64,000 bases of DNA. It comes from an uncultured Desulfobulbaceae bacterium (GTDB lineage: Bacteria; Desulfobacterota; Desulfobulbia; Desulfobulbales; CALZHT01). The stretch is from the NCBI GenBank assembly GCA_945787445.1, contig CALZHT010000022.1, positions 1 to 64,000 on the forward strand, written 5' to 3'. A program made the translations under genes and the position numbers. The notes below the pieces were generated by a model. That model was given only the letters and a program-made list of their open reading frames with translations, did not search any database and was not told the DNA's origin. This document shows positions 2,885 to 19,611 of this stretch, piece after piece (position 1 is the first letter of the stretch; every line of letters begins with the position of its first letter).

Positions 2885-4993
2885 TTAGCGTGAAACGAGC
2901 ACCACCAAGCTTCTTCGCTCCACCTTGAAGCGCTCTTTTTGAAAGCCGATTGCGGGCGCATCCTCCTCGACCTCGTAAATATCTTCAGGTGGAGTTCTGG
3001 CGGTGTCGATGACACGCAACCATTCCTTGCCATTATGCGGCACCTCAAAATACCGAGATTTTTCTGAGGCATTGAGCATCACGAAAATGTCTTTATCTGG
3101 TGTCTCCGGCGCCTTGTTACCTTCCAGCAAAAAGGCGATCCAGCGGGCCTCCTTTGACCAGTCCGGTTTGTTTGCCCTTTTGCCGTGCCAACTGATGCCG
3201 GGGCCGCCGCTGAAGAAGTGCTCCCGGCGCAGGCTGTGATGGCGCTTGCGAAAGGCGATCATCAGCCGCGTAAAACGCAGCATATCCTCATGCTGTGCAG
3301 CCAGGTCCCAGTTGATCCAGCTTATTGTATTATCCTGGCAATAGGCGTTGTTATTGCCGTTCTGCGATCGGCAGAATTCATCGCCGCCCAGGAGCATAGG
3401 CACGCCCTGGCTCAACAACAGTGTGGCCATGAGGTTCTTTATATGCCGGTTGCGCATGCGGTTGATTTTATCGATGTCGGTCGGCCCTTCCACCCCAAAG
3501 TTCATAGAATGGTTGTTGTTCTCGCCGTCGCGGTTCTCTTCGCCGTTGTCTTCGTTGTGCTTTTCGTTATAGGAAACAAGATCGATCAGCGTAAAACCGT
3601 CATGGGCGGTGATAAAATTAATGGAGTGATAGGGCCAGCGTCCGGTTGGCTGGTACAGGTCCTCCGAGCCGCAGAGGCGGTTGGCGAGATGGCTCACCTG
3701 TCCCGGGTCGCCACGCCAGAAAGCGCGCACCTGGTCACGATAGTAGCCATTCCATTCGGCCCATCGGCCCCAAACCGGGAAGCTGCCAACCTGGTAAAGG
3801 CCCGCTGCATCCCACGCCTCGGCAATTATCTTGGTATCTGCCAGCACCGGATCCGCGGCAATACGCTCAAGCAGCGGCGGATTCTCAAGTATTTCTCCAT
3901 TTTCGCCGCGGCCGAGAATTGATGCCAGATCAAAGCGGAAACCATCGATATGCATCTCCGATACCCAGTAATGCAGACAATCGATAATCATGGCACGTAC
4001 GTGCGGATGGTTGCAGTTGAGGGTGTTGCCGCACCCCGAAAAGTTAAGGTAACCACCTTCATTGTCCAGCATGTAATAGATACTGTTGTCAATGCCGCGC
4101 ATGGAGATAGTGGGGCCACGCTCGTCGCCTTCGCCGGTATGGTTAAAGACAACATCAAGATAGACCTCAATATCGGCGCGGTGAAATGCCTTTACCATCT
4201 CGCGAAACTCGTTGACCTGGTTGCCGTTACGCCCGTTAAAGGCAAAGCTCGCCTTGGGCGCAAAAAAGGCAAGGGGGGAATATCCCCAGAAGTTGCGCAT
4301 GAGTTCTCCGGTGTGTGGATGGTGGCGCAAATGTTCGTTCTCATCGAATTCGAATACCGGCATGAGTTCCACCGCTGTGACGCCAAGCTCTTGCAGGTAG
4401 GGTATTTTCTCGGTGAGCCCCAGGTATGTTCCAGGATGGCGCACCCCGGAAGAAGGATGAACAGTGAAGCCGCGGACATGCAGTTCATAAATAACCGTCT
4501 CTCCCAGCGGTGTACGAGGCGGTGCATCGCCCTGCCAGTCAAAATCTTCTAAAGGTAGACATCCCAGGCGATGGTGGAAGATTTTTTCGCCCTCCGGTCC
4601 TTTTGCATGCTGGATGCCGGATTCGCCCCAAACCGAACCGCCACTCAGGCCTCTGGCATAAGGATCGATCAGGACGGCATTGGGATCGAACCGATGGAGA
4701 TTTTTCGGTTCACTCGGGCCATTCAATCGCCAACCATAGAGGATGGAGGGATCCAGACCGCACACTAGAATATGCCAGACATGGCCGGTGCGATGAAAAT
4801 GGGGATCCAGTGGAATTTCGACCATTGGTTCGTCCGTGTCTTGCCGAAAGAGAACCAGAGAGGCAGCAGTAACATGTTTGGAAAAAAACGAGAAATTAAT
4901 GCCACGTCCAAGCTCGGAAGCGCCAAATGGAAGGGGCTTGCCGCGCTCGAGCCTGAAGGCGCCGGCGGCCCAGGATTCCTGCTGTGCAGCCAC
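2885..4993 (-). CDS. glgX: Glycogen debranching enzyme GlgX / isoamylase-type (GH13)
   Basis: A 702-residue protein of normal GlgX length. An N-terminal CBM48-like domain (about 15-120, LPFGASELGRGINFSFFSK) precedes a GH13 catalytic barrel. Catalytic landmarks are the nucleophile Asp in GFRFDLASILGR, the acid/base Glu in IIAEAWDAAG and the third Asp in TAHDGFTL. It hydrolyses alpha-1,6 branches of glycogen or amylopectin. The start is GTG at 4991-4993, preceded by AAGGAGTAGGG on the minus strand. It is the last gene of a five-gene glucan operon and lies 8 bp after glgA. Isoamylase-type debranching is what shapes crystalline starch in plants, which matters given the dikinases nearby. Confidence 0.93.
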   Translation of the reverse strand: MAAQQESWAAGAFRLERGKPLPFGASELGRGINFSFFSKHVTAASLVLFRQDTDEPMVEIPLDPHFHRTGHVWHILVCGLDPSILYGWRLNGPSEPKNLHRFDPNAVLIDPYARGLSGGSVWGESGIQHAKGPEGEKIFHHRLGCLPLEDFDWQGDAPPRTPLGETVIYELHVRGFTVHPSSGVRHPGTYLGLTEKIPYLQELGVTAVELMPVFEFDENEHLRHHPHTGELMRNFWGYSPLAFFAPKASFAFNGRNGNQVNEFREMVKAFHRADIEVYLDVVFNHTGEGDERGPTISMRGIDNSIYYMLDNEGGYLNFSGCGNTLNCNHPHVRAMIIDCLHYWVSEMHIDGFRFDLASILGRGENGEILENPPLLERIAADPVLADTKIIAEAWDAAGLYQVGSFPVWGRWAEWNGYYRDQVRAFWRGDPGQVSHLANRLCGSEDLYQPTGRWPYHSINFITAHDGFTLIDLVSYNEKHNEDNGEENRDGENNNHSMNFGVEGPTDIDKINRMRNRHIKNLMATLLLSQGVPMLLGGDEFCRSQNGNNNAYCQDNTISWINWDLAAQHEDMLRFTRLMIAFRKRHHSLRREHFFSGGPGISWHGKRANKPDWSKEARWIAFLLEGNKAPETPDKDIFVMLNASEKSRYFEVPHNGKEWLRVIDTARTPPEDIYEVEEDAPAIGFQKERFKVERRSLVVLVSR

Positions 4994-5001
4994 GGTTTTC
5001 C

Positions 5002-6468
5002 CTACTCCTTGATGTAATCGTAAATATTTATATAATGACCGCCGGGATGATTCCAGGAATAGTCGTATCGCATGCCGTTAATCATCAATTCTCGAAAATG
5101 TTGGGGATGGCTGTACCACATGCCGATGGCCCGGTGCAGTGCTGATTCCATACCTTGGTAATTGAAATCATTGAACAAATAACCATTTCGTTCATGATAT
5201 GGCCTGTGGGCGTAATTCGCATCAAAAACAGTATCGGTCAGGCCGCCGGTATTGCGAACCACGGGAACCGTGCCGTATTTCATGGCGATCATCTGCGTCA
5301 GGCCGCATGGTTCAAAGGCGCTGGGGATAAGAATCATGTCAGCGCCCGCATAGATGAGATGGGCCAATTCTTCATGATACGAGATTTCCAGATGGCAGTC
5401 AGGGTTATCGTTCAAAGAATGTTTGAGTTGCCAATATTCATGGTTTATGCGTGGATCAGGACTTGAACCCAGCAGCACAAACTGGCAGCCGTTGGCCAAA
5501 GAATAAGAAATCGCATGGCGGATCAGTTCTACGCCCTTTTGATGGTCCAGGCGGCTTACCACCGCAACAAGCGGTTTATAATCATGTCTAAGCCACAAAC
5601 GTTGGCGCAAAGCTTCTTTGTTTTTGTATTTGTCATCAAGGGTATTGATTGAATAGCGGTGCGCGATATATGGATCGGTTTCAGGGTTCCAGGCGTTGTA
5701 ATCAAGCCCGTTCAAAACGCCGCCGAACTTCCCGCCATGCTCGTGCAGGGTATGCTGGAGCCCGTAACCGAGGTCCGTATGCTTAATCTCTTCAGAATAG
5801 TGGGGCGACACCGTAGTCACAAAGTTGGAATAGACTATCCCTCCCTTCATGATATTGACCGCACCGTGGTTAAAGTTGTCCTGCAGCCGTTCCTGGGTCA
5901 TATAATGAGCAGGGTTCAACCCTACCTGCCGGAGAATATATTCCCCGGTCACTCCCTGATGTTTGAGATTGTGCAGCGTATAGCACACCCTGGGGTGGGT
6001 CATTCCCAAATGCGTATACATGTCATACAAAAGGACCGGCACGAGCCCAGTCTGCCAGTCATGGCAATGGATAATATCAGGGTGCTTATTCGCCTTCAGC
6101 ATAAACTCCAATGCTGCGCGGCAAAAAAAGGCGAACCGCTCGGGATCGTCGTTATGTCCATAATAGATCCCGCGGTTAAAGAAGTTCGTGAACGAATGCG
6201 ATTCAATAAAAAAACATTTCAGACCTTCAACGAAACCAAAATATACATCGCAATGAAAATGCATGTCGTGATAGGGCACCCAGAGGTCCCCGAATACCTT
6301 ATGAAGATCCCAGATGCGGTCGTAGCGCATGCAGTCATATTTGGGGAGAATAACCTCTACCGCGTTGCCCCGGATCATGAGTTCCCGGGAAAGACCCTGC
6401 ACCACGTCCGCCAACCCCCCGACTTTCGCAACCGGCGCGCACTCCGGAGCAATCATAACGACATACAT
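5002..6468 (-). CDS. glgA: Glycogen (starch) synthase, GT5 family
   Basis: A glycogen synthase that transfers glucose from ADP- or UDP-glucose to the non-reducing end of an alpha-1,4-glucan. The substrate-binding KVGGLADV loop occurs near residue 15, and the C-terminal half carries the GT-B motif PSAFEPCGLTQMIAMKYG and the TGGLTDTV segment. I chose the ATG at 6466-6468, giving MYVVMIAPE, because family members start this way and AGAGG lies 9 bases upstream. An ATG 36 bases further upstream would overlap the preceding gene. The stop of the upstream GH57 gene is 1-2 bases away, so the two are translationally linked. The length of 488 aa is normal. Confidence 0.93.
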   Translation of the reverse strand: MYVVMIAPECAPVAKVGGLADVVQGLSRELMIRGNAVEVILPKYDCMRYDRIWDLHKVFGDLWVPYHDMHFHCDVYFGFVEGLKCFFIESHSFTNFFNRGIYYGHNDDPERFAFFCRAALEFMLKANKHPDIIHCHDWQTGLVPVLLYDMYTHLGMTHPRVCYTLHNLKHQGVTGEYILRQVGLNPAHYMTQERLQDNFNHGAVNIMKGGIVYSNFVTTVSPHYSEEIKHTDLGYGLQHTLHEHGGKFGGVLNGLDYNAWNPETDPYIAHRYSINTLDDKYKNKEALRQRLWLRHDYKPLVAVVSRLDHQKGVELIRHAISYSLANGCQFVLLGSSPDPRINHEYWQLKHSLNDNPDCHLEISYHEELAHLIYAGADMILIPSAFEPCGLTQMIAMKYGTVPVVRNTGGLTDTVFDANYAHRPYHERNGYLFNDFNYQGMESALHRAIGMWYSHPQHFRELMINGMRYDYSWNHPGGHYINIYDYIKE

Positions 6469-6469
6469 G

Positions 6470-8062
6470 TCAATAAGCCTCTGTAGAAAATGATTGGTGG
6501 TCAATTTGAGGAAAAATATTGTTGTGGCTTTCGATCGTTGCGAGCCATTCCTCGTCTATCATCCGGCCTTCGATTTCATTCTTAAGCCTGTTCAGCCGCA
6601 GAAGGTGGGTTTTTGTTCTTCGGGTGGCATACTCCGGCATCGTGCCGTTGTTGATCATAAAGGCCCAGTCGCTCGCCTGTGCCATCAGCAGTTCCCGTGC
6701 CGCCTGCTTGAGTGCCCGTAGCGTCAAGCCCTCTGGCTGGGGGTAATGCCTGGCCAGCTTTTCCATTACCTGCGTTCCTTGGTGCAGATGACGATAGATC
6801 CAGTCATTACTGCCATTGAGCCAGGTTTCGTGGAAGCCGTTGTATCCCCAACTGGAAGTACAGGGGGTCGCGACCTGATTGACGGGATGTTCTGCCAGGT
6901 ATTCGGAAAGAGTGATGAGGCGGATTGTTTTCTGTTCCGCACTGATCTTGCGGATCAGTCCATTGAGCCATATTGGCCCTTCATGCCACCAGTGGCCAAA
7001 TAGTTCGGCATCGTAAGGAGCCACAATGATGGGCTTGCGATCCATAACCGAAGCCAGATGTTCGATTTGTTTCTGCCGGTTGGCGATGAAGTTTTCGGCG
7101 TGCAGTTCCGCTTTGTTTTCCGCCCATTCAGGAACATAGATTTCTTTGTGATTAGTCTTGCCGGTGATGCGGAAATACTTGAAGCCGCTGTCAAGCCGTA
7201 TATTGTCTTGATGAATATATGGCTTGATATACTCAAGATCGAGATCGTAGGCGATATCACGATAAAATTCCCGATAATCATAATCCCCTGGATAGCCGTC
7301 AACTGAACTCCAGACCTGCCTGGACGATTCCGGATCACGTCCGAAAACAGCAGCTCCTGACGAGCAATAGATCGGCGTATAGACCCCGTGTTTCGGCCGC
7401 GGCTGAGCCCGGGTGATGCCATGGGTCTCTGCGATAGTGTGACGAATGGACTGATCCATGAGTACCTGGTCAACGCCGGGATAGTAGCCGCATTCCGGCA
7501 ACCAGAAACCCTTTGGCCTTTGACCGAAGAGGTGTTGATAATGGTCTATTCCCACCCGGATCTGGGCGCGCACCGCTGCTGGATTGACGGCAAGCAGCGG
7601 CAGGAATCCGTGAGTGGCTGCACTGGCCAGAAATTCTACCTTGCCAAGGGTCTGGAAGCGTTTAAAAGCCTGCACCAAGTTGCGCTTGTAACGATTGAGG
7701 AAAGCGGCGTGCACATTTTGCAGCTGCCTTGAGTACATGCGTGCCAGAGTATTCAATTCGGGCTGTAATCTGGTGCGCTTGATTTCTTTTTGGCCCAGCT
7801 CTATCAACCGTTCTAGTCTATTGAGATAACGTTGCTGTAAGAACGGATCAACAAGCATCGAAGCAAGAGTGGGGGAGAGCGAAAGGGTGAGCCGGAAATC
7901 AACCCCGTCTTCCAGCAAACTTTCCAGCATCAAGAGGAGAGGGATGTATGTTTCGGTGATGGCTTCGTAGAGCCAGTATTCTTCGAGGGCATCCTCATAT
8001 TCTGGGTGCCGCACGTAAGGAAGATGGGCGTGCAGGACAATTGCCAGATAACCTTTTTCCAT
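6470..8062 (-). CDS. GH57 family 1,4-alpha-glucan branching-type enzyme
   Basis: A 530-residue GH57 protein opening with MEKGYLAIVLHAHLPYVRHP, the typical N-terminus of GH57 branching enzymes. The WLPECGYYPGVD segment carries the catalytic Glu, and APYDAELFGHWWHEGP carries the second catalytic Asp. The C-terminal helical region ends with the MPEYATRRTKTHLLR motif of the DUF1957 group. It is expected to form alpha-1,6 branches in the cytoplasm. It sits directly before glgA and after a DUF4912 gene. Amylase or 4-alpha-glucanotransferase activity is the alternative within the family. Confidence 0.9.
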   Translation of the reverse strand: MEKGYLAIVLHAHLPYVRHPEYEDALEEYWLYEAITETYIPLLLMLESLLEDGVDFRLTLSLSPTLASMLVDPFLQQRYLNRLERLIELGQKEIKRTRLQPELNTLARMYSRQLQNVHAAFLNRYKRNLVQAFKRFQTLGKVEFLASAATHGFLPLLAVNPAAVRAQIRVGIDHYQHLFGQRPKGFWLPECGYYPGVDQVLMDQSIRHTIAETHGITRAQPRPKHGVYTPIYCSSGAAVFGRDPESSRQVWSSVDGYPGDYDYREFYRDIAYDLDLEYIKPYIHQDNIRLDSGFKYFRITGKTNHKEIYVPEWAENKAELHAENFIANRQKQIEHLASVMDRKPIIVAPYDAELFGHWWHEGPIWLNGLIRKISAEQKTIRLITLSEYLAEHPVNQVATPCTSSWGYNGFHETWLNGSNDWIYRHLHQGTQVMEKLARHYPQPEGLTLRALKQAARELLMAQASDWAFMINNGTMPEYATRRTKTHLLRLNRLKNEIEGRMIDEEWLATIESHNNIFPQIDHQSFSTEAY

Positions 8063-8129
8063 ATTTCAACCCATACTATTACCGCAGCAACCGGAGAAGA
8101 GGATAGTAGCCGCCCGGCGGAACCATGGC

Positions 8130-9032
8130 TTATTTTGACGAGACGCCAAAGCTGAACCGAGCCTCGCACACATCCGTAAGATTATGGTCCTTCTCTTTGG
8201 CATGTCGAGCATGAATGTTTTGCGGCCTTGAATTTTCCGGCCCAATGGAAGGCCTGATTTTCACGACAACCTTGCGGAACGGTTGGTTTTTTTTCGGTAG
8301 GCCTGGTGTTGATTCGCCTAACCGGAAAAGGGCAGCTTGATCCGATGCCGGTAGCGCGTCTTGGATCTTCTCTTTAGGGGGCTGCTTTTCGGCCGCCGTT
8401 TGTCCATCTCGCAAAGATTCTTCGCGAACTTCGGTGGTCAGCTCAGCTCCGCCGGTCTCTTCTGCTACGAACAGATACTGTTCATCTCCATCAGGAACAG
8501 GCCAGGCGCGCGGGGTCTCCACAATGTTTGACCGGGCCGCCGGAAAAAATTTGTCATTTTCAGCCCGAAAACCTATTTCGGCCAGGTATTCCTTCTCAGG
8601 GCTCCAGAGATGGACATACTGGTTTTGCACGGCAAGATCGATATCCACGTCAAAAAAGCTGTGGGCATTCTCTCCGTTAAAAACAATGTTGCTGACATCA
8701 TAGAATCTCAAAACAGGCCGTGTTTGTCTCGGGTCATCCTGGGGCCGTTGTTTTACTCGTTCAAAGCCGGCGGAAGGACTTGGATGTTGGCGAAAATGAA
8801 ATTCCCAATAAGCATGCACTACAAAGGGGCCAACCGGAAGCAACATCACTCTGTTTTCACCGTATGATTCAGGTAAATCGCCGTTTTCCCAAACCAGTTC
8901 ACGGCTTGAAGCTTCAACTTTATCATTCTTTCCTGTCTGCTGGGGAGCAACGGCCTCTGCACCATTACCTTGCTTGAGCGCATTCCGGGCATCATTTTTT
9001 GCCAGCTGCTGTTTAGCTTTTTTCCCAACCAT
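8130..9032 (-). CDS. DUF4912 domain protein (glucan operon)
   Basis: A 300-residue protein. After a basic N-terminus (MVGKKAKQQLAKNDARNALK), residues about 50-200 match the DUF4912 pattern: LPESYGENRVMLLPVGPFVVHAYWEF, then a conserved Trp-Ser-Pro-Glu-rich strand region ending in WPVPDGDEQYLFVAEE (given here as landmarks, not one run). The C-terminal 100 residues are low complexity and probably disordered. The start has GAGAGGG five bases upstream. DUF4912 genes commonly accompany GH57 and GlgA genes; its function is unknown. By its fold pattern (beta-rich, aromatic) a carbohydrate-binding or scaffold role is plausible but unproven. Confidence 0.8.
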   Translation of the reverse strand: MVGKKAKQQLAKNDARNALKQGNGAEAVAPQQTGKNDKVEASSRELVWENGDLPESYGENRVMLLPVGPFVVHAYWEFHFRQHPSPSAGFERVKQRPQDDPRQTRPVLRFYDVSNIVFNGENAHSFFDVDIDLAVQNQYVHLWSPEKEYLAEIGFRAENDKFFPAARSNIVETPRAWPVPDGDEQYLFVAEETGGAELTTEVREESLRDGQTAAEKQPPKEKIQDALPASDQAALFRLGESTPGLPKKNQPFRKVVVKIRPSIGPENSRPQNIHARHAKEKDHNLTDVCEARFSFGVSSK

Positions 9033-9189
9033 GTTACCCTCTCACCGGAGGTTATGCGCCACGAATTATCTTCAATGCTAACAATAATAATACAAAGCGA
9101 TAAGGGTGCATCGTGTTCTATCCAACGATAGAGTAAGTCTTGCCGAGAGGTTACAAAAGTTCCAGCAAAAACTCAAGGTAGATTATGGC

Positions 9190-10476
9190 TCAATCTTCCG
9201 CCACCGAATCTCTTGCAGTGATCAGCACTATTCCTTGGCCAGGTTGAAGGTCATAGGAAAACGGTGCCGGTATGTAGCCCAGCGGGTTTTCCGGAGAGAC
9301 ATCAATAAGCGGTGCCCCTGCCTGAACAAAACTTTGCAGATTTTCCGCATAAAAATGCTGTTTGGTATGCATATCTTTATTGAGAATTAGCAACGCTTCT
9401 TCTTGTGTTTTGACCGAGGCCTTCCACATAAGCAAAACATTGGGATTGGAAGTGGGAAGTATTGTAGTGGGAGGTTCCTCTTGAAAGATTGCATGACGTG
9501 ATTTGATTGTATTGACAGCCCTTATGAATGAAGTCAGATCAGTATCTGTTTGTTCCCAATCTTCCGGTCTGGTTTTAACGACATGGAGTTTTTTTTGAAA
9601 TCCAAATTCGAAACCCATGGGCATCATAATGCCGGCTGAAAACAGGGCGGCGAAAAGATAGCGTTGCTTAACGCCTTCCACGTTGCCGAGCAATTCAGCC
9701 CAGAGGCGCTCGGTGTCGTGGCTCTCCGGGAAGCTTATTGACGGGGCGATCTCGCGCGTAAGGGTATATTGTTCCACCAGCCAGGGGCTCTGGAAATCCC
9801 ACCATTTGGAACTGTTGAATATGAAATCAAAGCCGGCTTTGGCGGTTTTTCTGGTTTGATCCGGGGGACATCCAAGAGTTTCTGCAAAAAAGAGGACATG
9901 GGGATGGAATTTTTTGGTTTCCCGGATGAGCCTTTTCCATAGACTTCCCGGGACCTGATAAGCGGCATCACAGCGAAATCCACTGAAACCCAATTCTACC
10001 AAGAACCTAACCATATGAAGAAAGAATTGAAAGAGGCCCTCTCTATCGCTGGTGTTTTTATGATCAAACTTGGCTAAATCTTTCCAGACTACCTTTTTCC
10101 CGTTTTCATAACAGAAAGGGTGCGCAACCTTTCCGGACTTTTCCCACAGAAACCACTCAGGATGCTGCTGGAGCAGATCCGAATCCGCTGCGCAGTGGCT
10201 GATCACCAGATCGACCATCACCTTGAGCCCCATCGTATCCGCGGCCGTGATCATTTCCTTTATCTGTTCCCGGGGTTCTTTTTTGCTTTTTGAGGCAACC
10301 AGGAGAGGATTAAAGGCGTAATAATCCGCTATGGAATACAGGCTGCCTGAAGAGCCGGGGCGCTGAACGGGATTGACAAATATCCAGGTGAAGCCCATGG
10401 CGGCTGCCCGCGACAGATGTTTTTTCCAATCAGTAAAACGGCCTGCCAGGAGGGGGAACAAATTATATATAATCAT
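9190..10476 (-). CDS. GH13 alpha-amylase family protein
   Basis: A 428-residue GH13 barrel beginning MIIYNLFPLLAGRF, with AAMGFTWIFVNPV and VMVDLVISHCA as strand landmarks. The catalytic triad is in place: Asp in GFSGFRCDAAYQVP, Glu in VLFFAETLG and Asp in SFPESHDTERLW. A short C-terminal beta domain follows. The sequence resembles the GlgE-like/oligosaccharide-acting GH13 branches more than secreted amylases: no signal peptide, small size, Cys in the nucleophile motif. Hydrolysis or transfer on malto-oligosaccharides in the cytoplasm is likely. It is the first gene of the minus-strand operon (AAGGAGT before the ATG) and diverges from the GWD gene. Confidence 0.85.
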   Translation of the reverse strand: MIIYNLFPLLAGRFTDWKKHLSRAAAMGFTWIFVNPVQRPGSSGSLYSIADYYAFNPLLVASKSKKEPREQIKEMITAADTMGLKVMVDLVISHCAADSDLLQQHPEWFLWEKSGKVAHPFCYENGKKVVWKDLAKFDHKNTSDREGLFQFFLHMVRFLVELGFSGFRCDAAYQVPGSLWKRLIRETKKFHPHVLFFAETLGCPPDQTRKTAKAGFDFIFNSSKWWDFQSPWLVEQYTLTREIAPSISFPESHDTERLWAELLGNVEGVKQRYLFAALFSAGIMMPMGFEFGFQKKLHVVKTRPEDWEQTDTDLTSFIRAVNTIKSRHAIFQEEPPTTILPTSNPNVLLMWKASVKTQEEALLILNKDMHTKQHFYAENLQSFVQAGAPLIDVSPENPLGYIPAPFSYDLQPGQGIVLITARDSVAED

Positions 10477-10545
10477 GAATACTCCTTAGTATCGTGGGAA
10501 TTAGGAATTCCTGACTCCGAAAAGTACTTCCAGTGAGTTACTGTA

Positions 10546-10628: not shown

Positions 10629-10725
10629 GAAATTGTTCGCTTTTGTTCGGTATCATGATACATTCTCCCGAGGTCAGGTTGTCTGAAAATTATATTTATA
10701 CTACCATGTTGCAAAGTGTACGATC

Positions 10726-13611
10726 ATGAAAATGGACAGTCAAGATATTAGCATCAGAAATAATTTACCATTGAACATAGAAAGGCGTTCTGTTGATAGC
10801 CGGATGGAGGTGTCGCTTTCTCTGCAGAGCAAGAAAAAGTGTGTGCTGCACTGGGGAGTCTGTCGTCATATAAAGGCGCCCTGGCAGATTCCTCCGCAAT
10901 CGATCTGGCCTGCCGGTACGGATGCGTTTGGCCCAAACGCTGCTCAGACCCCGTTTACAACACACAACGATGTAAATCAAATCAAAATTACCCTGGATCA
11001 GGACCTTGAATTCTCCATAATCGCTTTTGCCCTCTTTTTCCCGGAGGAAAATTATTGGGATAACAACCATGACAGAAATTATATAATCACCCTGACAAAA
11101 TCCGGAGAACCTTTGATTTTGCCCCATCAGGCGCTTGCCGAGGAGACTACCGAAAAGGAAATTGTTTTCCAGCAGGTATACCACCTTGATGAGGATAGAG
11201 AGTTGGCAGCGGCGGTCTGCAAAGAAGGGGACCGTTATCGGATAATTCTGATTGCCGATATTCCCGGCACCCTGGTCCTGCATTGGGGAGTTGCCAAAAA
11301 ATCGAAATATGAATGGCTCATGCCTCCTCCTTCTCTCCGGCCTGTTGACACGATAATCAGTGATAACAGTGCAGCACAAACGGTGTTTGTTGCAGAAAAA
11401 GGTCTCCAGCAACTGCAGATCGAAGTTGCCGAGCAGGATGCGGTGTTAGGTCTTGCTTTTGTGCTGAAGAGGTCTGATACCGGGAAATGGTATAAAAAAC
11501 ACCGTGGTAATTTTTATATTCCTGTGCATGTTTCACTTTATGAGGAAACGGTATTAGAAACGCAGGAGCTTGCCGATCTTGCGGAAGATATTGTTCAGAA
11601 GGAATCAGGACGCAATTCCTGGACCCTTATGCACCGTTTTAATTTGTGTCATGACTTGTTGGACCGAGTGCACAATTATGTGGAAGGGCTGGCGCTCCTT
11701 TTTGTGTGGCTGCGATTCTCAGCCATCAGGCAGTTGGATTGGCAGCGAAATTACAATACCAAGCCGCGGGAGTTGGCGCACGCCCAAAAGCGGTTGACCC
11801 TCAAACTTGCCGCAGCATATGGAGACGCCGCACCGGCGAGCCGGGAAATTATCCGCCTCATGCTATCCACCTTGGGACGGGGGGGTGAAGGAGGTAAGGG
11901 CCAGAGGATTCGCGATGATATCCTCCACATCATGCACCGCCATAAGATCAAGGAAGTTTCCGGCCATTTTATGGAGGAATGGCACCAGAAGCTCCACAAC
12001 AACGCCACTCCTGACGATATCGTTATATGTGAGGCGTATCTGGAGTTTTTACGCAGTTACGGTGACCATGCCCTTTTTTACAAGACCCTTAAGAATGGCG
12101 GGGTAACCAAGAAACGGCTTGCAAGCTTTGAACGGCCGATAACCACTGCCCCAGATTTTGTCCCGCATATCAGAGACGGCCTGATCCACGATTTTGAAAA
12201 TTATCTGCAGCTCCTCCAATCAATTCACTCCGCCACTGATCTGGCCAGCGCGGTGGCGACCTCCAGCCGCTGTCTCAACGAACAGCTGCAAGGACAGACG
12301 GCATATATTCACCAATCCCGCGATGATGGGGGGATTGATGTGGTTGATCGCGTCCGGTCCATCACCGAAGTACGCGGCTCACTTAACATTTTCCTTAATG
12401 AAGGGATTGGGGAAGAATGCGTTCGCGATATACTGTATCTTGATCTGGCCCTGGAAGAGTTTTTGCGCGTTGTAGTGGAGCGCGATATCCATAGGGGACT
12501 CAAAATAAAAGAACTCGCGCAATTAATCGGTATGTTGATTGAGAATGTGCGGTTTGCCCATGACAATACAGAACTTGCCTATTGCGCCACGCAGTGGGAA
12601 CGACTCCTTAGGGTAGATACGATCGACAAAAACTGGGCCCTGCATTCCAGATCCATGCTCGAAAGGATTACCCGGATACTGGGCGCTTTTAGCGATTATT
12701 ACTATAAGCTTTTGCAGGCCAAAGCAGAACATCTGGGACATGGTTTTGGCGCCGAGGCATGGACAATTGACCTTTTTAGCCAAGAAATTGTGCGCGCCGG
12801 TTCGCCGTTCGTCCTCTCCATCCTGCTGCAGCACTTCGATCCCATGCTGCGTAAGGTTGCCCGGCTCGGGAGCTGGCAGGTGATCAGCCAGACGGAAACC
12901 GCCGGCCACGTGGAAATTGCCACATTGCTCGACATCCAGGAGAAGATATTCGACCGTTCCACCGTGATTATCACCGACAGAGTTACGGGGGACGAGGAGA
13001 TCCCTGCCGGCGTCACCGCAGTAATAACGCCGGATGTGGTTGATGTTCTATCCCATGTGTCGATTCGCGCCAGGAACGGTTCTATCCTGTTTGCCACCTG
13101 CTATGATATGAAGATCATTGATGCGTTCAAGTCGCATAACGGCGAGATGCTGCAACTCAAGGTCAATGGTACGGGAGATGTGGAATTTGCAAAGGCTGAG
13201 GAAAAGATAAAAAGTACACGGAAGAGAGGAGAGGGAAGCGGTAAAGGGCCGGTAAAATTAATGCCGGCAGCTTTCACCCATTTAGCTATTGCTTCGCCAA
13301 ATTTTACCGGCATGGTGGTCGGCGGCAAGTCCTTACAACTGCAGCTTCTCCAGGGCAGGCTACCCGGCTGGATCCATCTGCCCCGGTCCGTAGCAATATC
13401 GTTTGGTGTTTGCGAAAAAGTGCTTGCCGAACCGGGCAACAAAACGGTCAACGCGCAGTATACCAGGTTAACCGAACAGGTTGACCAACAGCCCGGTAAG
13501 ATTTTGCCGGAACTTCGTAAGACCCTCATGGCTCTCGAAGGACCGGAGGCGCTGGTCACCTCTCTTCCACGCGGACCTACAGATGGCGGTCCTCATCCAG
13601 CAAGTAGTTGA
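10726..13611 (+). pseudogene. Alpha-glucan water dikinase, GWD1-type, N-terminal part (frameshifted)
   Basis: This frame encodes most of a plant-type GWD, which transfers the beta-phosphate of ATP to C6 of glucans. Two CBM45-like starch-binding modules are marked by VLHWGVCRH (about residue 42) and LVLHWGVAKKSKYEW (about 184). The helical core has the GWD signatures STLGRGGEGGKGQRIRDDIL and EEWHQKLHNNATPDDIVICE. The phosphohistidine swivel domain has VDVLSHVSIRARN with the catalytic His at about residue 777. The start of the ATP-grasp domain follows (VVGGKSLQLQLL, SVAISFGVCEKVL). After about residue 940 the frame leaves homology and stops. The remaining nucleotide-binding part continues in another frame from 13568. 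Alignment by eye to plant GWD suggests about 45-50 codons are missing at the junction. Confidence 0.88.
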
Positions 13612-14125
13612 GGCGGAATATGCCTTTGTGATCCATACCGCTAATCCGTTTACCGGGGCGCGGGATGAACTCTATGGAGAGGTGGTCTTGGGACTTGGGG
13701 AAACGCTTTGCAGCGGTAACTATCCAGGCAGAGCTCTCGGTTTTATCTGCCGAAAGTCCAAAACTCTCCAACCTCGTCTTGTCTCATATCCGAGCAAGGG
13801 TGTTGCCCTTCGAGGCAAGGGGCTGATAGTCCGTTCAGACTCCAACGGCGAGGACCTTGAAGAGTATGCCGGCGCCGGCCTTTATGATTCAGTGTTGCTG
13901 GAGCCTCCTCATGAAGAGCTGCTGGATTACACAGAGAGTCCACTATTATGGGATGAGCAATACAGGAAGGAATTTTTTAAAAAAATCACCAAGATCGGCA
14001 TTGAAATCGAAAAGGCTCTGGACGGCTGTCCCCAGGATATAGAGGGCGCTTTTCAAAACGGCGAGTATTATGTGGTGCAGACCCGCCCGCAGGTGGGCAT
14101 AAGCACTACCCTAAAAGGTGGATAA
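13568..14125 (+). pseudogene. Alpha-glucan water dikinase, C-terminal part (second frame of the broken GWD)
   Basis: From HADLQMAVLIQQVV onward this frame holds the rest of the GWD ATP-binding domain: AFVIHTANPFTGARDE, EVVLGLGETL, then the GWD1-type late RSDSNGEDLEEYAGAGLYDS motif and the C-terminal QDIEGAF and YVVQTRPQVG. In plant GWD1, RSDSNGEDL comes after MAVLVQ, as here, so the order is canonical. No start codon or ribosome site supports separate translation. The segment normally found before it (Trp-rich, with VWASKWNERA) is absent on both sides of the junction, so this is a deletion with frameshift rather than a single-base slip. Confidence 0.85.
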
Positions 14126-14138
14126 CAGTCTACTGTTA

Positions 14139-14493
14139 GTCATTCCGGCGAACGCCGGAATCCAGAGCTGCTAACATGATCAAGCAACCAGCCGTATATA
14201 TTCTTGCAAGCAGAAGAAATGGCACTCTATATGTCGGTGTGACTTCGAACCTCGTCAAGAGGATATGGGAACATAAAAATAATATGGCTAATGGCTTCAC
14301 TAAGCGCTATGGAGTTCATCGGTTGGTTTGGTATGAGCTGCATGAGAACATGGAATCCGCCATTCAGCGGGAGAAAAGATTAAAGGATTGGAAGCGTGCG
14401 TGGAAACTGGATTTAATCGAACACATCAATCCTGATTGGCATGACTTGTATCCTGCGATTGTATAACTGGATTCCGGCGTTCGCCGGAATGAC
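14139..14493. mobile_element. GIY-YIG gene module bounded by perfect 27-bp inverted repeats
   Basis: 14139-14165 (GTCATTCCGGCGAACGCCGG and on) and 14467-14493 are perfect reverse complements. Each arm is itself a palindrome (TTCCGGCGAACGCCGGAA), as in REP sequences. The enclosed gene runs almost from arm to arm. The same arrangement of CGTCATTCCGG palindromes around a small GIY-YIG gene is familiar from many proteobacteria and suggests a non-autonomous or REP-like mobile unit inserted between the two dikinase genes. Confidence 0.72.
14176..14466 (+). CDS. GIY-YIG nuclease superfamily protein (96 aa)
   Basis: A 96-residue protein with the GIY-YIG core: VYILASRRNGTLYVGVTSN, Arg in LVKRIWEH, and the downstream Glu-containing MESAIQREKRLKDWKR. 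This is the UPF0213/YhbQ-like single-domain class, a putative endonuclease. It lies within perfect inverted repeats, so it was probably mobilised with them. The ATG at 14176 follows the left arm by 10 bases, with no strong ribosome site. It has no functional link to the flanking dikinases that I can see. Confidence 0.88.
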   Translation: MIKQPAVYILASRRNGTLYVGVTSNLVKRIWEHKNNMANGFTKRYGVHRLVWYELHENMESAIQREKRLKDWKRAWKLDLIEHINPDWHDLYPAIV

Positions 14494-14655
14494 GTGCAAG
14501 GAACCTTGACATCTTAAGTTAGCGCTTATGCTGCAGGTGGGTGTGGCATGGCGGTGAAGGATTGGCAAGTAGGCGCTTAGTTGGGTCAATTGCGAAAACT
14601 TTGTCTATCTATTAATTTATGTTGCATTACCAGGTTGTTACAAATTGAATCGCGC

Positions 14656-14702
14656 CAGAAGGCAGAAGGCAGAAGGCAGAAGGCAGAAGGCAGAAGGCAG
14701 AA
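14656..14702. repeat. 7-bp tandem repeat (CAGAAGG)6-7
   Basis: Six exact copies of CAGAAGG run head to tail from 14656 to 14697, with a partial seventh. The tract lies about 85 bp upstream of the PWD-type gene, in a 294-bp non-coding gap that otherwise shows nothing. A purine-rich heptamer of this kind can vary in copy number by slippage. Confidence 0.9.
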
Positions 14703-14787
14703 AAGAGAAAATGGGAGTGATAGATTCGATAGGCGGTAAAGCCTCTTTGGCTAAATCCAGGAAAGTTGATAGCCGGAGTGAGATATC

Positions 14788-17700
14788 ATGAAAACCGGCA
14801 GCCGTATCCGAATCGGCAACCAGACTGCCTATAGCGCTTCTTCGTTATTCGCGCCTTTTCTTTACGCAATAAACAACGGTTTTGATGCCTTTGAGTGGTT
14901 TCCCGACAAAAAAGAATCGGGCGCCGGTTGGGATACAAGCGACCTGAATGGGGAAAGACGTCAATACATACGGGAGACAGCCCTTGCTCATGATATTGCC
15001 TTAACCGTGCATGCGCAATGGTGGGCCAATCCCTTGCAGCCAAACACCCATGAACTCATTATACAAGATATCGCTTTTGCACAGGACATCGGCGCAACCC
15101 TGTTCAATATTCACCTGTATACTGAAAAGGGAATAGAAGCCTATATTCAGGCGCTTTTACCGGTCATCAATGCCACCCGGAAGGCCGGTCTTAAACTTGC
15201 CATCGAAAACACACCTCTTACCACTGCGGCCGATTTCAATCGCTTGTTTGCTCTCCTGCGAAACATGCGGGACACGCCCGCGGAACATGTGGGCATCTGT
15301 CTTGACCTGGGCCACGCCAATCTGTCCGCAGCAACCCGCAACAACTATTTGGCGTTCATTGATCAACTGGACGCCACCCTGCCCATCGTCCATATTCATC
15401 TCCATGAAAATTACGGGGATCAGGACAGCCACCTGGTTATTTTTTCCGGTCCGGCCGGCACTGATGATACCGGTGTGTACGGATTTATCGAAAGGATAAC
15501 AAAGCGTGCCTTTGGAGGCTCCATTATCCTCGAACAATGGCCGGAACCAGCATCTCTGCTTAATCAGGCGCGGGACAGGCTTCTCCATATGACTTCCACG
15601 TATAAGGTAAAGAAAAAATCCCTCGCCAGGCCCGGTAAAGCAAAACCGTTGAAAAAAACAGAAAATGAGCACGGGGCCCCAACAGGCATGCCGCTAAAAA
15701 GTTCCGTGGTAGCCGCAACAAATGATGTAAAGCCGTCCCCGGGAAAAGAAGCACTTCTCCCTGATAAAGAAATAGCCCAAGATGCGTTTGCAAAAAAGAT
15801 TGTGGCCCAGGATAAACACCGCAGCAGTTGGCGGGAAAAATTAGCGGGGGTCTGTGATCTCCTGCACGATGAAGAATCGGTCATAACCACTGAAAGCCTC
15901 ATTTATCTGGCCATCTATCTGCGCTTCCTGGGGACCGGTGCGGTCGCTTGCCGCGAAGACGGCCGTCATTTCCGGCCCAGCCGCCTTTCCCGCCTGTCCC
16001 AAAAGATTCAGCAATATCTGGTGGCTCATACCAGCAATGACAACCTTTTCATCCTGCGGAAGATCTACCCCTGGCTTCCTTCTTATGACAGCACCTTCAT
16101 GAGGTCGGAACCGTTAACGAGAATACGGGATATTGCCCATAGAAACGACATTCCACAGGAACTGAAAAAAGAGATCAAACATACTCTGCAAAATAAACTG
16201 CACCGCTGTGCAGGACCTGAGGATCTTCGTACTTCCGAATCGATCCTTGCCCGCATCACGGCTGCCGGTGCCGATTATTCTCCCTCTTTCGTGGAACAGT
16301 TCACCATCTTCCACCGCGAGCTGCAGGAGTTTTTCAATGCCCCTTCTCTCGAGGAAAGGCTCCGGACAATGCTTGAGAAAAACGAGATTAAACCAAAGGA
16401 TCTTGCCAAGCGGTTTCTCAATGCCAAGAGTGATCTAAACAATACACCTGATCGACAGCTTGTCGCCCTTGAACGTGCAACAGAACTCCGTAGTCTGCTG
16501 CTCAAGAAGACAAAAAATGATGCAAGTGCCCAGGCCCAGAATATGCGGCTGGTTGATATAGGTCTTGAGGATTTCGCTTTTGTTCTTCTGAGCGGTATGA
16601 TCAACAGCCTTGCAACTCTGCAAGGAGATATTGCCTGGAAACCGGCCCTCCATGGAGTGGAGTTTATCGTGGACAATCTCCGGATCAGTGGTGTGCATCC
16701 AGAGGAATGCTCCGCCATTGTTTCTGCTTTTCATGCCTGGCGCCGCGCCTTTGATCCTGGCGATCGGGAGCAGCTGTTGCGGCTGAAGGCAACGCTTGCC
16801 AGGTGCCGCCGGCTGGCCGATACCTATAGCGATACAGTGCTGGCCCTGTTTCTCGACAGGGTTGTATGGCTGGGCCGCGCCCTGGGTGTGGCTGATCACG
16901 TGATCCAAACCTATTGCGAGGGAGATATCCGCGGCAACCTCATATTCCAACTGTCAAAACTTGTTTCCTTACTACTCAAAGAAATAAGGAGAGTGTCAGA
17001 CCTCCCTCCCTGGGATATTCTAGTCCCAGGCAAAGCTACGGGACGTCTGGTTGCTGCCGAGTATTTGACCGACCTGACCGGTCCTTTTGATGAAGAGGTC
17101 CTGGTTCTGTTGGAAAGGGCGGAAGGAGATGAGGAGATTCCAAGGGGTGTGGCCGGTATTATTCTTTGCCATGAATTGCCCCATCTTTCCCATTTCGGGG
17201 TCAGGTGCCGTCAGGACAGGGTGGTGCTGGTGGCCTATGAAGATGAGGAGCAATTACAGTCCTTAGGGCAATATGTGGGGGAGCGGCTCACTTTTACTGT
17301 GAGCGGCGAAGGTGTCACTGTTGATCCTGCCATGTCGCTCCAAGAGAAAAAGAAGAATGAACCACAGAGACTGTTCTGCGTTCCGCACGTTCACCTAATT
17401 CCTGAAGGCAAGGTCCTTGAGTTGGAGAAGGTAACGATTGCCAACAGCGGCGGTAAGGCTGATGGGGCGAGGCGGCTTGCAGAGTTGTCCCGCCAAAATG
17501 GCGCCGGCTTTCATACCCCTGCCGGGCTGGTAATTCCCTTTGGTGTGCTGGGAGAGGTCCTCAATTCCGGGTCAACGCTCAAAAAGCGGTATAAAATGCT
17601 GATGCAGCGCTTACAAACTCCGGGAGAGGCTGAATTTCTTGCAGCTGTGGAAGAGCTCCGCGACCTGATTGAAACGCTATCTATACCTGATGAATTAATC

Positions 17701-18366
17701 TCTATCGTTATGAAAACGTTTGCAGGAAATGAGCGGTTGATGGTTCGTTCGAGCGCAAACTGTGAGGACCTGGAAGAACTGGCAGGAGCGGGGCTGTATG
17801 ATTCGATCGCCAATGTGGCGCCGCCAAATGTGGGAGAAGGGGTGCGCAAGGTCTGGGCGTCACTGTGGACAAGGCGCGCCGCCATGAGCAGAAGACAAGC
17901 CGGTATCCCTCATGATCAGGCTCATATGGCGGTGCTTGTCCAACAGATGATTGTTCCCGAATATTCCTTTATCATGCACACGGTAAATCCCATTACTGCC
18001 AGAAAGGATGAAATATACCTGGAATTGGCGGTCGGACTGGGTGAGACACTTGCCTCGGGAGCAGCACGGGGTGAGCCCTATCGTTTGGTGTGCAGCAAAG
18101 ACATGGTATTGGTCCAGACGCTTTCCTTTGCTAATTTCAGTCATGCACTGTGGCCGCATGCCAAAACAGGGGTCTATTCTGAAACAGTGGATTATGCAAA
18201 GGTCGCCCTTTCCACCGACAGTAAAGTGCGGAATAAAATGGGCAGGCACTTGGCCGCTGCCGGCCGGTTCGTGGAAGCAGCGTTCGGCGGACCCCAAGAT
18301 ATCGAGGGTGTTATTGTTGGCCAAGACATCTATCTAGTCCAGTCCAGGCCCCAGCCGGGAGTGTAA
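14788..18366 (+). CDS. TIM-barrel / phosphoglucan water dikinase (PWD/GWD3-type) fusion
   Basis: A 1192-residue fusion. Residues 1-270 form a sugar-isomerase-like (AP endonuclease 2 superfamily) TIM barrel with likely metal ligands in LKLAIENTP, GICLDLGHANLS, VHIHLHENYGD and ILEQW. A low-complexity linker (about 275-345) leads to a PWD-type dikinase: WDILVPGKATGRLV, the swivel motif ELPHLSHFGVRCRQ with catalytic His about 802, then an ATP-grasp domain with RSSANCEDLEELAGAGLYDS (about 987), KVWASLWTRRAAMSRRQAG, MAVLVQQMI, GLGETLASG and C-terminal QDIEGV and YLVQSRPQP. The early position of RSSANCEDL and the PHLSHxGVR motif are PWD rather than GWD1 features. PWD phosphorylates C3 of pre-phosphorylated glucan in plants. 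The usual N-terminal CBM20 is replaced by the barrel. Confidence 0.88.
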   Translation: MKTGSRIRIGNQTAYSASSLFAPFLYAINNGFDAFEWFPDKKESGAGWDTSDLNGERRQYIRETALAHDIALTVHAQWWANPLQPNTHELIIQDIAFAQDIGATLFNIHLYTEKGIEAYIQALLPVINATRKAGLKLAIENTPLTTAADFNRLFALLRNMRDTPAEHVGICLDLGHANLSAATRNNYLAFIDQLDATLPIVHIHLHENYGDQDSHLVIFSGPAGTDDTGVYGFIERITKRAFGGSIILEQWPEPASLLNQARDRLLHMTSTYKVKKKSLARPGKAKPLKKTENEHGAPTGMPLKSSVVAATNDVKPSPGKEALLPDKEIAQDAFAKKIVAQDKHRSSWREKLAGVCDLLHDEESVITTESLIYLAIYLRFLGTGAVACREDGRHFRPSRLSRLSQKIQQYLVAHTSNDNLFILRKIYPWLPSYDSTFMRSEPLTRIRDIAHRNDIPQELKKEIKHTLQNKLHRCAGPEDLRTSESILARITAAGADYSPSFVEQFTIFHRELQEFFNAPSLEERLRTMLEKNEIKPKDLAKRFLNAKSDLNNTPDRQLVALERATELRSLLLKKTKNDASAQAQNMRLVDIGLEDFAFVLLSGMINSLATLQGDIAWKPALHGVEFIVDNLRISGVHPEECSAIVSAFHAWRRAFDPGDREQLLRLKATLARCRRLADTYSDTVLALFLDRVVWLGRALGVADHVIQTYCEGDIRGNLIFQLSKLVSLLLKEIRRVSDLPPWDILVPGKATGRLVAAEYLTDLTGPFDEEVLVLLERAEGDEEIPRGVAGIILCHELPHLSHFGVRCRQDRVVLVAYEDEEQLQSLGQYVGERLTFTVSGEGVTVDPAMSLQEKKKNEPQRLFCVPHVHLIPEGKVLELEKVTIANSGGKADGARRLAELSRQNGAGFHTPAGLVIPFGVLGEVLNSGSTLKKRYKMLMQRLQTPGEAEFLAAVEELRDLIETLSIPDELISIVMKTFAGNERLMVRSSANCEDLEELAGAGLYDSIANVAPPNVGEGVRKVWASLWTRRAAMSRRQAGIPHDQAHMAVLVQQMIVPEYSFIMHTVNPITARKDEIYLELAVGLGETLASGAARGEPYRLVCSKDMVLVQTLSFANFSHALWPHAKTGVYSETVDYAKVALSTDSKVRNKMGRHLAAAGRFVEAAFGGPQDIEGVIVGQDIYLVQSRPQPGV

Positions 18367-18513
18367 GTGGCCACAGGCACCGCACCCCAAGGGCATTTAC
18401 TTCGCTGCACATCTTCGCACGATCGCTCCTGCCCGCATAGCGGGCTATAGCGAACAGTCGCGCTCGGAGTCTACGCTTACCTGCACGAATCTACGGTGCC
18501 TGTGACCACTTAC
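18363..18513. repeat. MITE-like element with 20-bp terminal inverted repeats (element A)
   Basis: Ends 18363-18382 (GTAAGTGGCCACAGGCACCG) and 18494-18513 are reverse complements over 19 of 20 bases. The 110-bp interior contains CCCGC-ATA-GCGGG, a central hairpin, followed by a CTCGGAGTC stretch. The left end contains the TAA stop codon (18364-18366) of the dikinase gene. Elements at 44205-44329 and 51145-51343 have different ends but the same plan. Confidence 0.75.
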
Positions 18514-18579
18514 GATTTTTTCTTTGTAAATTCGGAGTAGTGTCTACTCCGTAATCGGTTACCCTGGAGTTATATAATT

Positions 18580-19611
18580 ATGCCATCTGCAGGCCCGCGC
18601 TATCTTGCGCTTTTTCAAAAAAGGATCGATGGCGATGATGCTCTCCTGGAACTGGCGCGCCTTCGTTTTCAAGAAGCTGGGCTGGGTACGGAATTCTACG
18701 CTGGTACGCCGGACGAACTGCATCACCTCTTGCAGTATAGGCCCTGGCCCGATGCTCCTGTCGTGGTGCACCTTCCTAGAGAATTAGACCTGTTCAACGA
18801 GGAACACCGCAGACAGATTGTTCATTTCGCGGCATCCTGTGAAGCAAATGTCTATGGATTCGTTATCCACGATACTGCCGAACTGAAGACGCGCTTCAGC
18901 GAATATATTGCGACTTTGCAAGAGGTTAATTCTGCCTTGCAATCATTGACCATTGCCCCTTATCTGTTTGTCGAGTATGCCGCAGGGCTGGAACCCGGAC
19001 TCTTTTGCGAACTTTTTAAAAACTTACAGGATCTTGAGCACATCAGTGCGTGCATTGACATTGGTCACATAGGGATATGGCAGGCACGATATCTTTACCG
19101 CAAAAAGTATCCAGGCATAGATCTCTGCGGGCTTGCGCCCACTAACCCTGCACTGCCGGAATTAATAATGGATGTGGTAGATGCAGTACATGGGGCGCTG
19201 CCGACTGTGCTTGAAGTGATTCGGAGACTGGGGAGTCATGGCAGACCCCTCCACTTTCATCTCCATGACGCCCATCCTCTTTCGACTTTCAGCCCCTTTG
19301 GGATTTCAGACCATTTGAGTTTTTTTGCGGAGATTCCGATCCCCTTTGCCTACAAGGGGAAAAATATGCTCCATCCCATGTTCGGGCCTGCAGGGCTTGC
19401 AAAAATTGTTACCGCTTTACGAGAAGTGATTGACCCCGGGCTCGTTTCTTTTACCCTGGAGATTCATCCGGTGCCGGGAAGGCTTCCCCTTGGTAGTGCC
19501 TCCTCTCTGTTTACCCATTGGCAGGACAAAACAAATGCGGAACAGATGAATTTCTGGCTGTCGGTTTTGCTTGAGAATTACCGCCTGTTATTGAAGACAA
19601 GTAACAATTGA
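18580..19611 (+). CDS. Sugar isomerase-like TIM-barrel protein
   Basis: A 343-residue protein of the xylose isomerase/AP endonuclease 2 superfamily. Landmarks are the probable metal ligands Glu in YLFVEYAAG, Asp and His in ACIDIGHIGIWQA, His in HFHLHDAHPLS and Glu in SFTLEIHP. GGAG lies about 10 bases before the ATG. It follows the dikinase fusion, which carries its own barrel of the same superfamily, so a shared substrate such as a glucan-derived sugar or sugar phosphate is plausible. The sequence itself does not reveal the reaction. An endonuclease role is unlikely in this context. Confidence 0.78.
   Translation: MPSAGPRYLALFQKRIDGDDALLELARLRFQEAGLGTEFYAGTPDELHHLLQYRPWPDAPVVVHLPRELDLFNEEHRRQIVHFAASCEANVYGFVIHDTAELKTRFSEYIATLQEVNSALQSLTIAPYLFVEYAAGLEPGLFCELFKNLQDLEHISACIDIGHIGIWQARYLYRKKYPGIDLCGLAPTNPALPELIMDVVDAVHGALPTVLEVIRRLGSHGRPLHFHLHDAHPLSTFSPFGISDHLSFFAEIPIPFAYKGKNMLHPMFGPAGLAKIVTALREVIDPGLVSFTLEIHPVPGRLPLGSASSLFTHWQDKTNAEQMNFWLSVLLENYRLLLKTSNN

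Follow-up and report, generated by a model that had tools for sequence, protein, structure and literature searches.

The window studied here, a stretch of 64,000 nucleotides (positions 1 to 64,000 of contig CALZHT010000022.1, assembly GCA_945787445.1, from an uncultured Desulfobulbaceae bacterium), carries at 2885-19611 what is probably a bacterial locus for alpha-glucan phosphate cycling, in which two dikinases would add phosphate to a glucan and two TIM barrels would remove it. In the proposed scheme both dikinases, belonging to the plant starch family (one GWD1-type, one PWD-like), would take phosphate from ATP via a conserved histidine and transfer it to the storage glucan that GlgA, the GH57 branching enzyme and GlgX, encoded alongside, produce. 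The two barrels, one fused to the PWD-type dikinase and one separate, would then remove the phosphate through a multinuclear metal site of the endonuclease IV kind, filling the role that SEX4 and laforin have in eukaryotes; phosphorylation followed by dephosphorylation would make the glucan first accessible and then degradable. The parts of the scheme that we infer are the glucan as substrate, the phosphorylated positions and the phosphatase activity of the barrels.

An earlier sequence-only reading of the window had described GWD1-type and PWD/GWD3-type dikinase genes on the plus strand, diverging from GH13, DUF4912, GH57, GlgA and GlgX genes. All of the genes and motifs that it named were found, with the five glucan genes on the minus strand (2885-10476) and the dikinase genes running divergently from 10726, and domain content, motifs and structural matches bear out both dikinase types. 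The span that it gave runs to 19611, and the last part of it, 18580-19611, holds no dikinase but a second TIM-barrel gene, TIM2. Also overlooked were the TIM barrel at the N-terminus of the PWD-type protein, its site of nine metal ligands, and the tracking of PWD by TIM2 together with the fusion of TIM2 to GH13. The genome of the window (G000) is a draft of 4.46 Mb in 227 contigs, 95.6% complete. Below, G labels denote genomes and L labels denote loci (L021 lies in G009, and L025 in G045). The features of the locus are:

2885-4993, minus strand: GlgX, isoamylase-type glycogen debranching enzyme (TIGR02100 737.8 bits, cut-off 640.9; CBM48, ISOA1-3_C)
5002-6504, minus strand: GlgA, ADP-glucose glycogen/starch synthase (NF001905 887 bits and TIGR02095 540 bits, both above cut-off)
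6470-8062, minus strand: GH57 alpha-glucan branching enzyme (PF03065, PF09210 BE_C; NCBIfam branching models match below cut-off)
8130-9032, minus strand: DUF4912 protein (PF16258 2.4e-30), recurring beside GH57/GH13 in L038, L042, L043 and L050
9190-10476, minus strand: GH13 alpha-amylase-superfamily enzyme, glycogen-debranching-like (PF14701 2.3e-22, PF00128 1.7e-10), with a homologue fused to TIM2 in L040 and L042
10726-13611, plus strand: GWD1-type alpha-glucan dikinase, N-terminal 961 amino acids (PF23166 twice, PF22973; central domain with WHQKLHNN, phospho-His domain)
13481-14125, plus strand: rest of the GWD ATP-binding domain, read in a different frame (late RSDSNGEDL; some 45 residues are lacking where the two parts join, near 13560)
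14788-18366, plus strand: PWD/GWD3-like dikinase, intact, 1192 amino acids (PF01261, PF22973, PF01326; early RSSANCEDL)
14788-15600, plus strand: first TIM barrel, the N-terminal part of the PWD-like protein (endonuclease IV-like nine-ligand site; structure model with predicted local distance difference test score, pLDDT, of 91.1)
18580-19611, plus strand: TIM2, second endonuclease IV-like TIM barrel (Foldseek top matches endonuclease IV; model pLDDT 92.2)

Two dikinases of the plant starch dikinase family

Sequence comparison confirmed the first plus-strand protein as a GWD1-type dikinase, for which phosphorylation at C6 would be the predicted activity. Pfam identifies Ig_N_CWD1 (PF23166) in two stretches (2.3e-49, 167 bits), that is, the tandem N-terminal starch-binding (CBM45/Ig-like) domain of GWD1, as well as GWD1_pHisD (PF22973, 2.1e-35); PF23166 matches all six relatives scanned, every one of which also has the pHis and PPDK_N domains. 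Over 437 residues the central domain aligns with that of 9ha9, a chloroplast GWD of solved structure (37.8% identity, 1.4e-83), a profile built from six relatives matches the same structure at 1e-124, and each of 85 bacterial GWDs matches it with 34-43% identity in the best segment. Counted by alignment column, since a strict regular expression missed many sequences, the catalytic phospho-His is present in 85 of 85 GWD sequences, that of the window included. The ATP site is permuted and C-terminal, with RSDSNGEDL late in the ATP domain, which we take to be the order in plant GWD1; the R, E and D of this motif are retained in all 83 sequences that reach it. Chance is ruled out by the Pfam E-values, the direct match to 9ha9 and recurrence in other genomes. 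The closest sequence among those compared, at 55% identity, belongs to a metagenome-assembled genome (L090) of Desulfobia, a genus of Desulfobulbales.

The PWD-type protein begins with the first TIM barrel, followed by a GWD-like central domain, a phospho-His domain (GWD1_pHisD, PF22973, 1.9e-20) and a C-terminal ATP-binding domain (PPDK_N, PF01326, 1.7e-42) with an early RSSANCEDL. Where a plant-type protein might carry CBM20, no such domain was detected by Pfam at E<=0.01, and a xylose-isomerase-like TIM barrel (PF01261, residues 27-255) stands in its place. The phospho-His is found in 27 of the 27 sequences reaching the site, the other four of the 31 being cut short. A PWD profile matches 9ha9 at 2.2e-9 over part of the central domain, and individually 30 of 31 PWD-type sequences match it weakly (best E 1e-5). 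The central domains are thus plant-GWD-like on sequence comparison, strongly in GWD and weakly in PWD, and because all bacterial GWDs match 9ha9 while the PWD-type proteins do so weakly, the split between GWD and PWD would be older than that between plant GWD1 and bacterial GWD. The motifs of the PWD-type protein presumably resemble those of plant GWD3, orthology to plant PWD being a lead only; among solved structures no plant PWD sequence turned up. If it acts as PWD does, its predicted target would be C3 of glucan that already carries phosphate.

Identity of either dikinase as phosphoenolpyruvate (PEP) synthase or pyruvate phosphate dikinase (PPDK), which the earlier reading had named as the outcome that would undo its proposal, was rejected on the pHis domain, the central domain and the order of domains: neither protein has a Pfam match at E<=0.01 to the PEP-utilising C-terminal barrel after the His domain, and in both the ATP domain is C-terminal. 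The GWD pHis model matched none of 14 control genomes, whereas PPDK_N matched 13 of them, and so the pHis model is not a mere marker of PEP synthase or PPDK.

Two TIM barrels with a likeness to endonuclease IV

The first barrel comes in two settings, as part of the PWD protein or encoded on its own next to GWD, and in all 54 of its sequences nine metal ligands are invariant (H75, H109, E140, D173, H176, H204, D213, H215 and E249). Profile alignment to Escherichia coli Nfo places these on residues 69, 109, 145, 179, 182, 216, 229, 231 and 261, in what we take to be the ligand numbering of Nfo, and all nine are identical. As controls for this procedure, MJ1311 scored 9 of 9 and the epimerases UlaE and YcjR 6 of 9 and 5 of 9; the nine zinc residues of MJ1311 are reportedly described as conserved in the paper on its structure. 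A search of solved sequences with the first-barrel profile returned seven matches at E<=0.01, namely MJ1311 and six endonuclease IV or AP endonuclease entries, and the NCBIfam nfo model matches the region weakly (0.0014). The fold of both barrels also fits a xylose-isomerase-like epimerase, and the first barrel has ligands beyond the single E-D-H-E metal site. Because it keeps all nine residues of the trinuclear zinc site of endonuclease IV, against five or six in the two epimerases, the first barrel is on sequence grounds likelier to be a phosphoesterase than an isomerase. Endonuclease IV also removes 3'-phosphates, and hydrolysis of a monoester by such a site is therefore plausible by analogy.

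For the structure model of TIM2 the top Foldseek matches are the endonuclease IV entries 5zhz and 4hno, and eight of the nine metal-site positions are identical between TIM2 and the first barrel in their alignment. None of 17 TIM2 members matches a Pfam family at E<=0.01; in the NCBIfam comparison CbiR matches TIM2 weakly (0.0014). The presence of TIM2 follows that of PWD: it was found in 17 of the 19 PWD loci whose sequence extends 1.2 kb or more past PWD and in none of the 26 PWD-less loci that extend 5 kb or more past GWD (Fisher p=1.6e-10, relatedness not corrected for). In two Nitrospirota loci TIM2 and the GH13 of the cluster form one open frame from stop to stop, of 837 amino acids (L040:16351-18861) and 849 amino acids (L042:16259-18805), a fusion that ties TIM2 to a predicted part in glucan chemistry.

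No DSPc phosphatase, the domain of SEX4 and laforin, was detected in the 95.6% complete genome of the window, although the same model matched 7 of the 14 controls, which leaves the phosphatase role free for the barrels. Elsewhere in this genome lie two adjacent GlgC-like genes (G000:C3:52544-54867), both below the cut-off of the glgC model TIGR02091, and a phosphorylase gene, so that ordinary glycogen synthesis and breakdown are likely on gene content. The paired GlgC-like paralogues could form a mixed ADP-glucose pyrophosphorylase. For the semi-crystalline glucan suggested earlier there was no evidence in either direction, GlgX being a debranching enzyme of the usual bacterial type that scores above the TIGR02100 cut-off.

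Distribution of the set among bacteria

A scan of named genomes yielded 113 confirmed GWD stretches, and the locus counts below describe the best 80 of these 113. Two loci that duplicate scanned genomes (L029 and L106, of G185 and G009) are counted among the 80 and were excluded from the family sets, for which bit thresholds were >150 for TIM, >300 for PWD and >500 for GWD; of the alignments, A4 used 48 barrels, A5 17 and A6 23. By record title the 80 loci belong to Nitrospirota, Desulfobacterota/'Deltaproteobacteria', Verrucomicrobia, anammox Planctomycetes, Chromatiales and Fibrobacteria, further to Acidobacteria, Myxococcales and Nitrospinota, and to others; most are metagenome-assembled genomes, and none is plainly a cultured isolate by title. 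Both GWD and PWD are present in 28 of the 80, which span the first six of these groups (six phyla by title), and in 25 of the 28 the TIM-PWD fusion adjoins GWD. Among the 52 loci without PWD, the first barrel is present in 21. At least one homologue of the tested glucan genes accompanies GWD in 35 of 80 loci, or in 29 of the 52 loci of at least 12 kb.

Four loci (L038, L042, L043 and L050) share the order GWD, TIM-PWD, TIM2, GH13, DUF4912, GH57, followed by GlgA in L043 and L050, and the window holds the same genes with the glucan half inverted. A variant cluster without PWD occurs elsewhere in the phylum, represented by L026 (7786-14272), L027 and L028: there GWD is accompanied by a free TIM barrel and by a GT4 glycosyltransferase, with GH57 in addition in L026, and GH57, DUF4912 and GH13 in L027 and L028. 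Separately, DUF4912 and a GT4 glycosyltransferase were seen joined in one open frame in two loci (L057:8385-10139 and L067:18110-19810).

Closer to the window the distribution is patchy. In counts that take in the genome of the window, four of 58 relatives match the GWD pHis model (G000, G008, G009 and G045, with two copies each), and a TIM2 profile finds the same four; among 395 genomes of the phylum the pHis model matches five, four of them above cut-off and two of these four in one genus, and the first-barrel profile recovers the same four. The pair of dikinases is therefore not absent from related genomes, the other outcome that the earlier reading had considered fatal, but recurs in them and in other phyla.

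Origins outside bacterial chromosomes were considered and set aside. A mobile or viral source was rejected, in that no GWD or PWD relative was confirmed in viral contigs and phages gave no GWD match; among plasmids, 13 records had partial matches (<=30% of the query), the annotated ones being mostly PEP synthase or PEP/pyruvate-binding. Algal contamination of the metagenome-assembled genomes is unlikely, the loci lying among bacterial-type genes, with L029 in a 2.63 Mb scaffold and L074 in a 3.17 Mb chromosome.

Phylogeny of the dikinases

The GWD tree comprised 44 bacterial rows and one chloroplast sequence, 45 of 86 rows having been kept after thinning at 70% identity and application of a length floor; it was midpoint-rooted, and its bootstrap was not fully settled. 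Under this rooting the chloroplast GWD forms a long branch outside all 44 bacterial rows, which makes recent transfer from plants into single bacterial lineages unlikely. Bacterial pairs are at least 42% identical, and the chloroplast sequence is at most 44% identical to any bacterial one. The window groups with G008, G009 and G045 in a supported clade (100/99). Pairwise identities of GWD and PWD correlate (r=0.80, n=25 after exclusion of PWD rows in which no more than 700 positions were filled; none of 2000 permutations reached this value), and the two genes would thus tend to travel or evolve together.

Alternative explanations

Several observations weigh against the phosphate-cycling interpretation, some of them by suggesting other roles for the barrels. 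Were the dikinases to phosphorylate glucan and the barrels to be isomerases or epimerases handling sugars or sugar phosphates from its breakdown, this would suit the xylose-isomerase-like Pfam label of the first barrel and the high rank of D-tagatose/D-psicose 3-epimerases in its VIA-align list (Z 21-22.5), where an epimerase at 22.5 stands beside the AP endonuclease 6ki3 at 22.4 and E. coli endonuclease IV at 20.3; its Foldseek list is likewise mixed. A ketose 3-epimerase comes first in the VIA-align list of TIM2 (Z 19.9), itself mixed, and for neither barrel do these lists separate epimerases from endonuclease IV. The Foldseek superposition of TIM2 on endonuclease IV is loose (TM 0.49, root-mean-square deviation 6.2), and where the first barrel has H109 the aligned residue of TIM2 is V95, an invariant histidine, H97, following two positions later. 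We nonetheless regard isomerase function as unlikely, on account of the nine conserved ligands of the first barrel (three or four more than in the epimerase controls), of the solved relatives found by its sequence profile, all MJ1311 or endonuclease IV-type, and of the dikinase fusion and the tracking of PWD, which suit phosphate removal better. Endonuclease IV-type sites act on phosphodiesters, and the barrels might instead act as phosphodiesterases or phosphatases on some small molecule or on a substrate resembling nucleic acid, with the dikinases acting on a soluble oligosaccharide or a cell-surface glucan in place of a storage polymer. The weak CbiR match of TIM2 points that way, as do the 45 of 80 loci that show no homologue of the tested glucan genes within the stretch examined. 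We consider it improbable given the setting of the set in a GH57/GH13/DUF4912 cluster in the window and the four loci of like order (with GlgA in the window, L043 and L050), the TIM2-GH13 fusions, and the tandem GWD1 N-terminal domain of the window's GWD. Nor is the association of barrel and dikinase complete: two PWD loci with room for it (L037 and L060) are without TIM2, and in 19 genomes with GWD, no adjacent barrel and at least 3 kb of downstream sequence, a barrel was found elsewhere in 11 (in L051 it lies farther along the same locus) and none at E<=1e-25 in 8, genome completeness not being given, so that GWD can probably exist without the barrel.

The phosphate-cycling interpretation must also accommodate the state of the GWD gene in the window, which the earlier reading had rightly identified by type but had treated as one gene: no intact frame was found, the coding sequence running through 10726-13611 and then 13481-14125 in another frame, with a frame change near 13560 and about 45 residues fewer than in relatives (read from the alignment with these, as BLASTP ends are blurred at the break). 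It is quite possible, if somewhat short of an even chance, that the system is decaying in this organism or that the break is an assembly artefact. The PWD of G045 (L025:14131-17607) is also divided over two frames, so that the window is not alone among these drafts in having a frame break. Against decay or artefact stand the uninterrupted GWD frames of G008 and G009, which belong to the same order, and the open frames of the PWD, TIM2 and five glucan genes of the window; a draft of 227 contigs makes assembly error plausible. On a longer time scale, the bacterial genes might derive from lateral transfer from a eukaryote, followed by spread among bacteria and later co-option, and not from an old bacterial system. 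Lateral transfer is suggested for some bacterial GWDs in PMC6260743 (legend to Fig. 9), and the patchiness described above (four among the 58 relatives and four among the 395 genomes of the phylum, above cut-off) would fit; the position of the chloroplast sequence outside all the bacterial rows, with the reservations on rooting and bootstrap given above, and the presence of the pair in six phyla by title tell against it, and we hold this history to be rather doubtful.

Neighbouring genes

Between the two dikinase genes (14142-14490) the window carries a 96-amino-acid GIY-YIG open reading frame at 14176-14466 (PF01541 8.7e-18), flanked by 24-bp inverted repeats and with one full copy in the genome; in L021 the dikinase genes abut without this insert. 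Directly after TIM2, at 19722-20996, lies a glycosyltransferase 28/UDPGT-like gene, whose best NCBIfam match, the rifamycin-inactivating Rgt, is far under cut-off. Near the glucan locus, a single open reading frame (21103-22506) joins a CarS-like domain to a calcineurin-like phosphoesterase, and two cytochrome bd subunit I-like proteins are encoded side by side at 22780-25554.

Comparison with known systems

Starch phosphorylation is treated in the literature, as far as the parts consulted go, as a feature of the plastid lineage (PMC6260743, PMC6805951). PMC6260743, on the Goniomonas genome, states that GWD was previously known from starch-accumulating organisms alone and leaves open why Goniomonas should have it; PMC6805951 dates the GWD1/GWD3 duplication to the ancestor of the archaeplastids and notes no clear homologue in the cyanobacterium Gloeomargarita. 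A red-algal PWD carries CBM20 (PMC8703398), two dikinases add C6 and C3 phosphate, and it has been speculated whether glycogen of laforin-less organisms, bacteria among them, is phosphorylated (both PMC13011383); PMC7569903 has no word starting with 'bacteri' or 'prokaryot'. The sequence-only reading had known of no described system of this kind in bacteria. Bacterial GWD is in fact already known, bacteria being coloured in the GWD tree of PMC6260743 (Fig. 9 legend), but for the GWD-PWD pair, the TIM-PWD fusion and the second barrel no report appears among the matches listed in the open-licence PMC literature (subscription papers lie outside it).

With the set found again in several phyla of bacteria, phosphate cycling of the starch kind may extend beyond plants and algae. 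A conserved bacterial set with both dikinase types would offer a candidate source or sister group of the plant enzymes and a simple system in which to ask why glucans are phosphorylated, and its endonuclease IV-like barrels would be a new candidate class of phosphoglucan phosphatase. More speculatively, and we would not expect it to hold in full, each dikinase may have its own endonuclease IV-like phosphatase across several phyla, the first barrel for GWD and TIM2 for PWD, with the pair predating the starch dikinases of plants and possibly having given rise to them; this arrangement would parallel plant GWD and PWD with SEX4 and LSF2.

With endonuclease IV and MJ1311 (3wqo) the barrels have their fold in common, and the first barrel also the nine ligand positions in full; they differ in that the first barrel is fused to a dikinase and both are linked to glucan genes. 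With SEX4 and laforin the set would share, by analogy, the proposed role of removing glucan phosphate, whereas their fold is unrelated and their DSPc domain was not found in the window's genome. Bacterial GWD homologues are also shown in PMC6260743, although the part of that paper seen mentions no bacterial PWD partner, operon or TIM barrel. Like plant and algal PWD/GWD3 (EC 2.7.9.5), the bacterial PWD-type protein has a distant GWD-related central domain, a phospho-His and an ATP domain with an early motif (the likeness to plant GWD3 motifs being presumed), but it differs from it in having no CBM20 and a TIM barrel fused N-terminally. There is also the likeness to plant and algal GWD1 (EC 2.7.9.4), with which bacterial GWD shares the tandem N-terminal domain, the central domain, the phospho-His domain and a C-terminal ATP site with a late RSDSNGEDL (presumably the plant order), and from which it differs in the broken frame of the window's copy and in adjoining glycogen genes and an endonuclease IV-like barrel.

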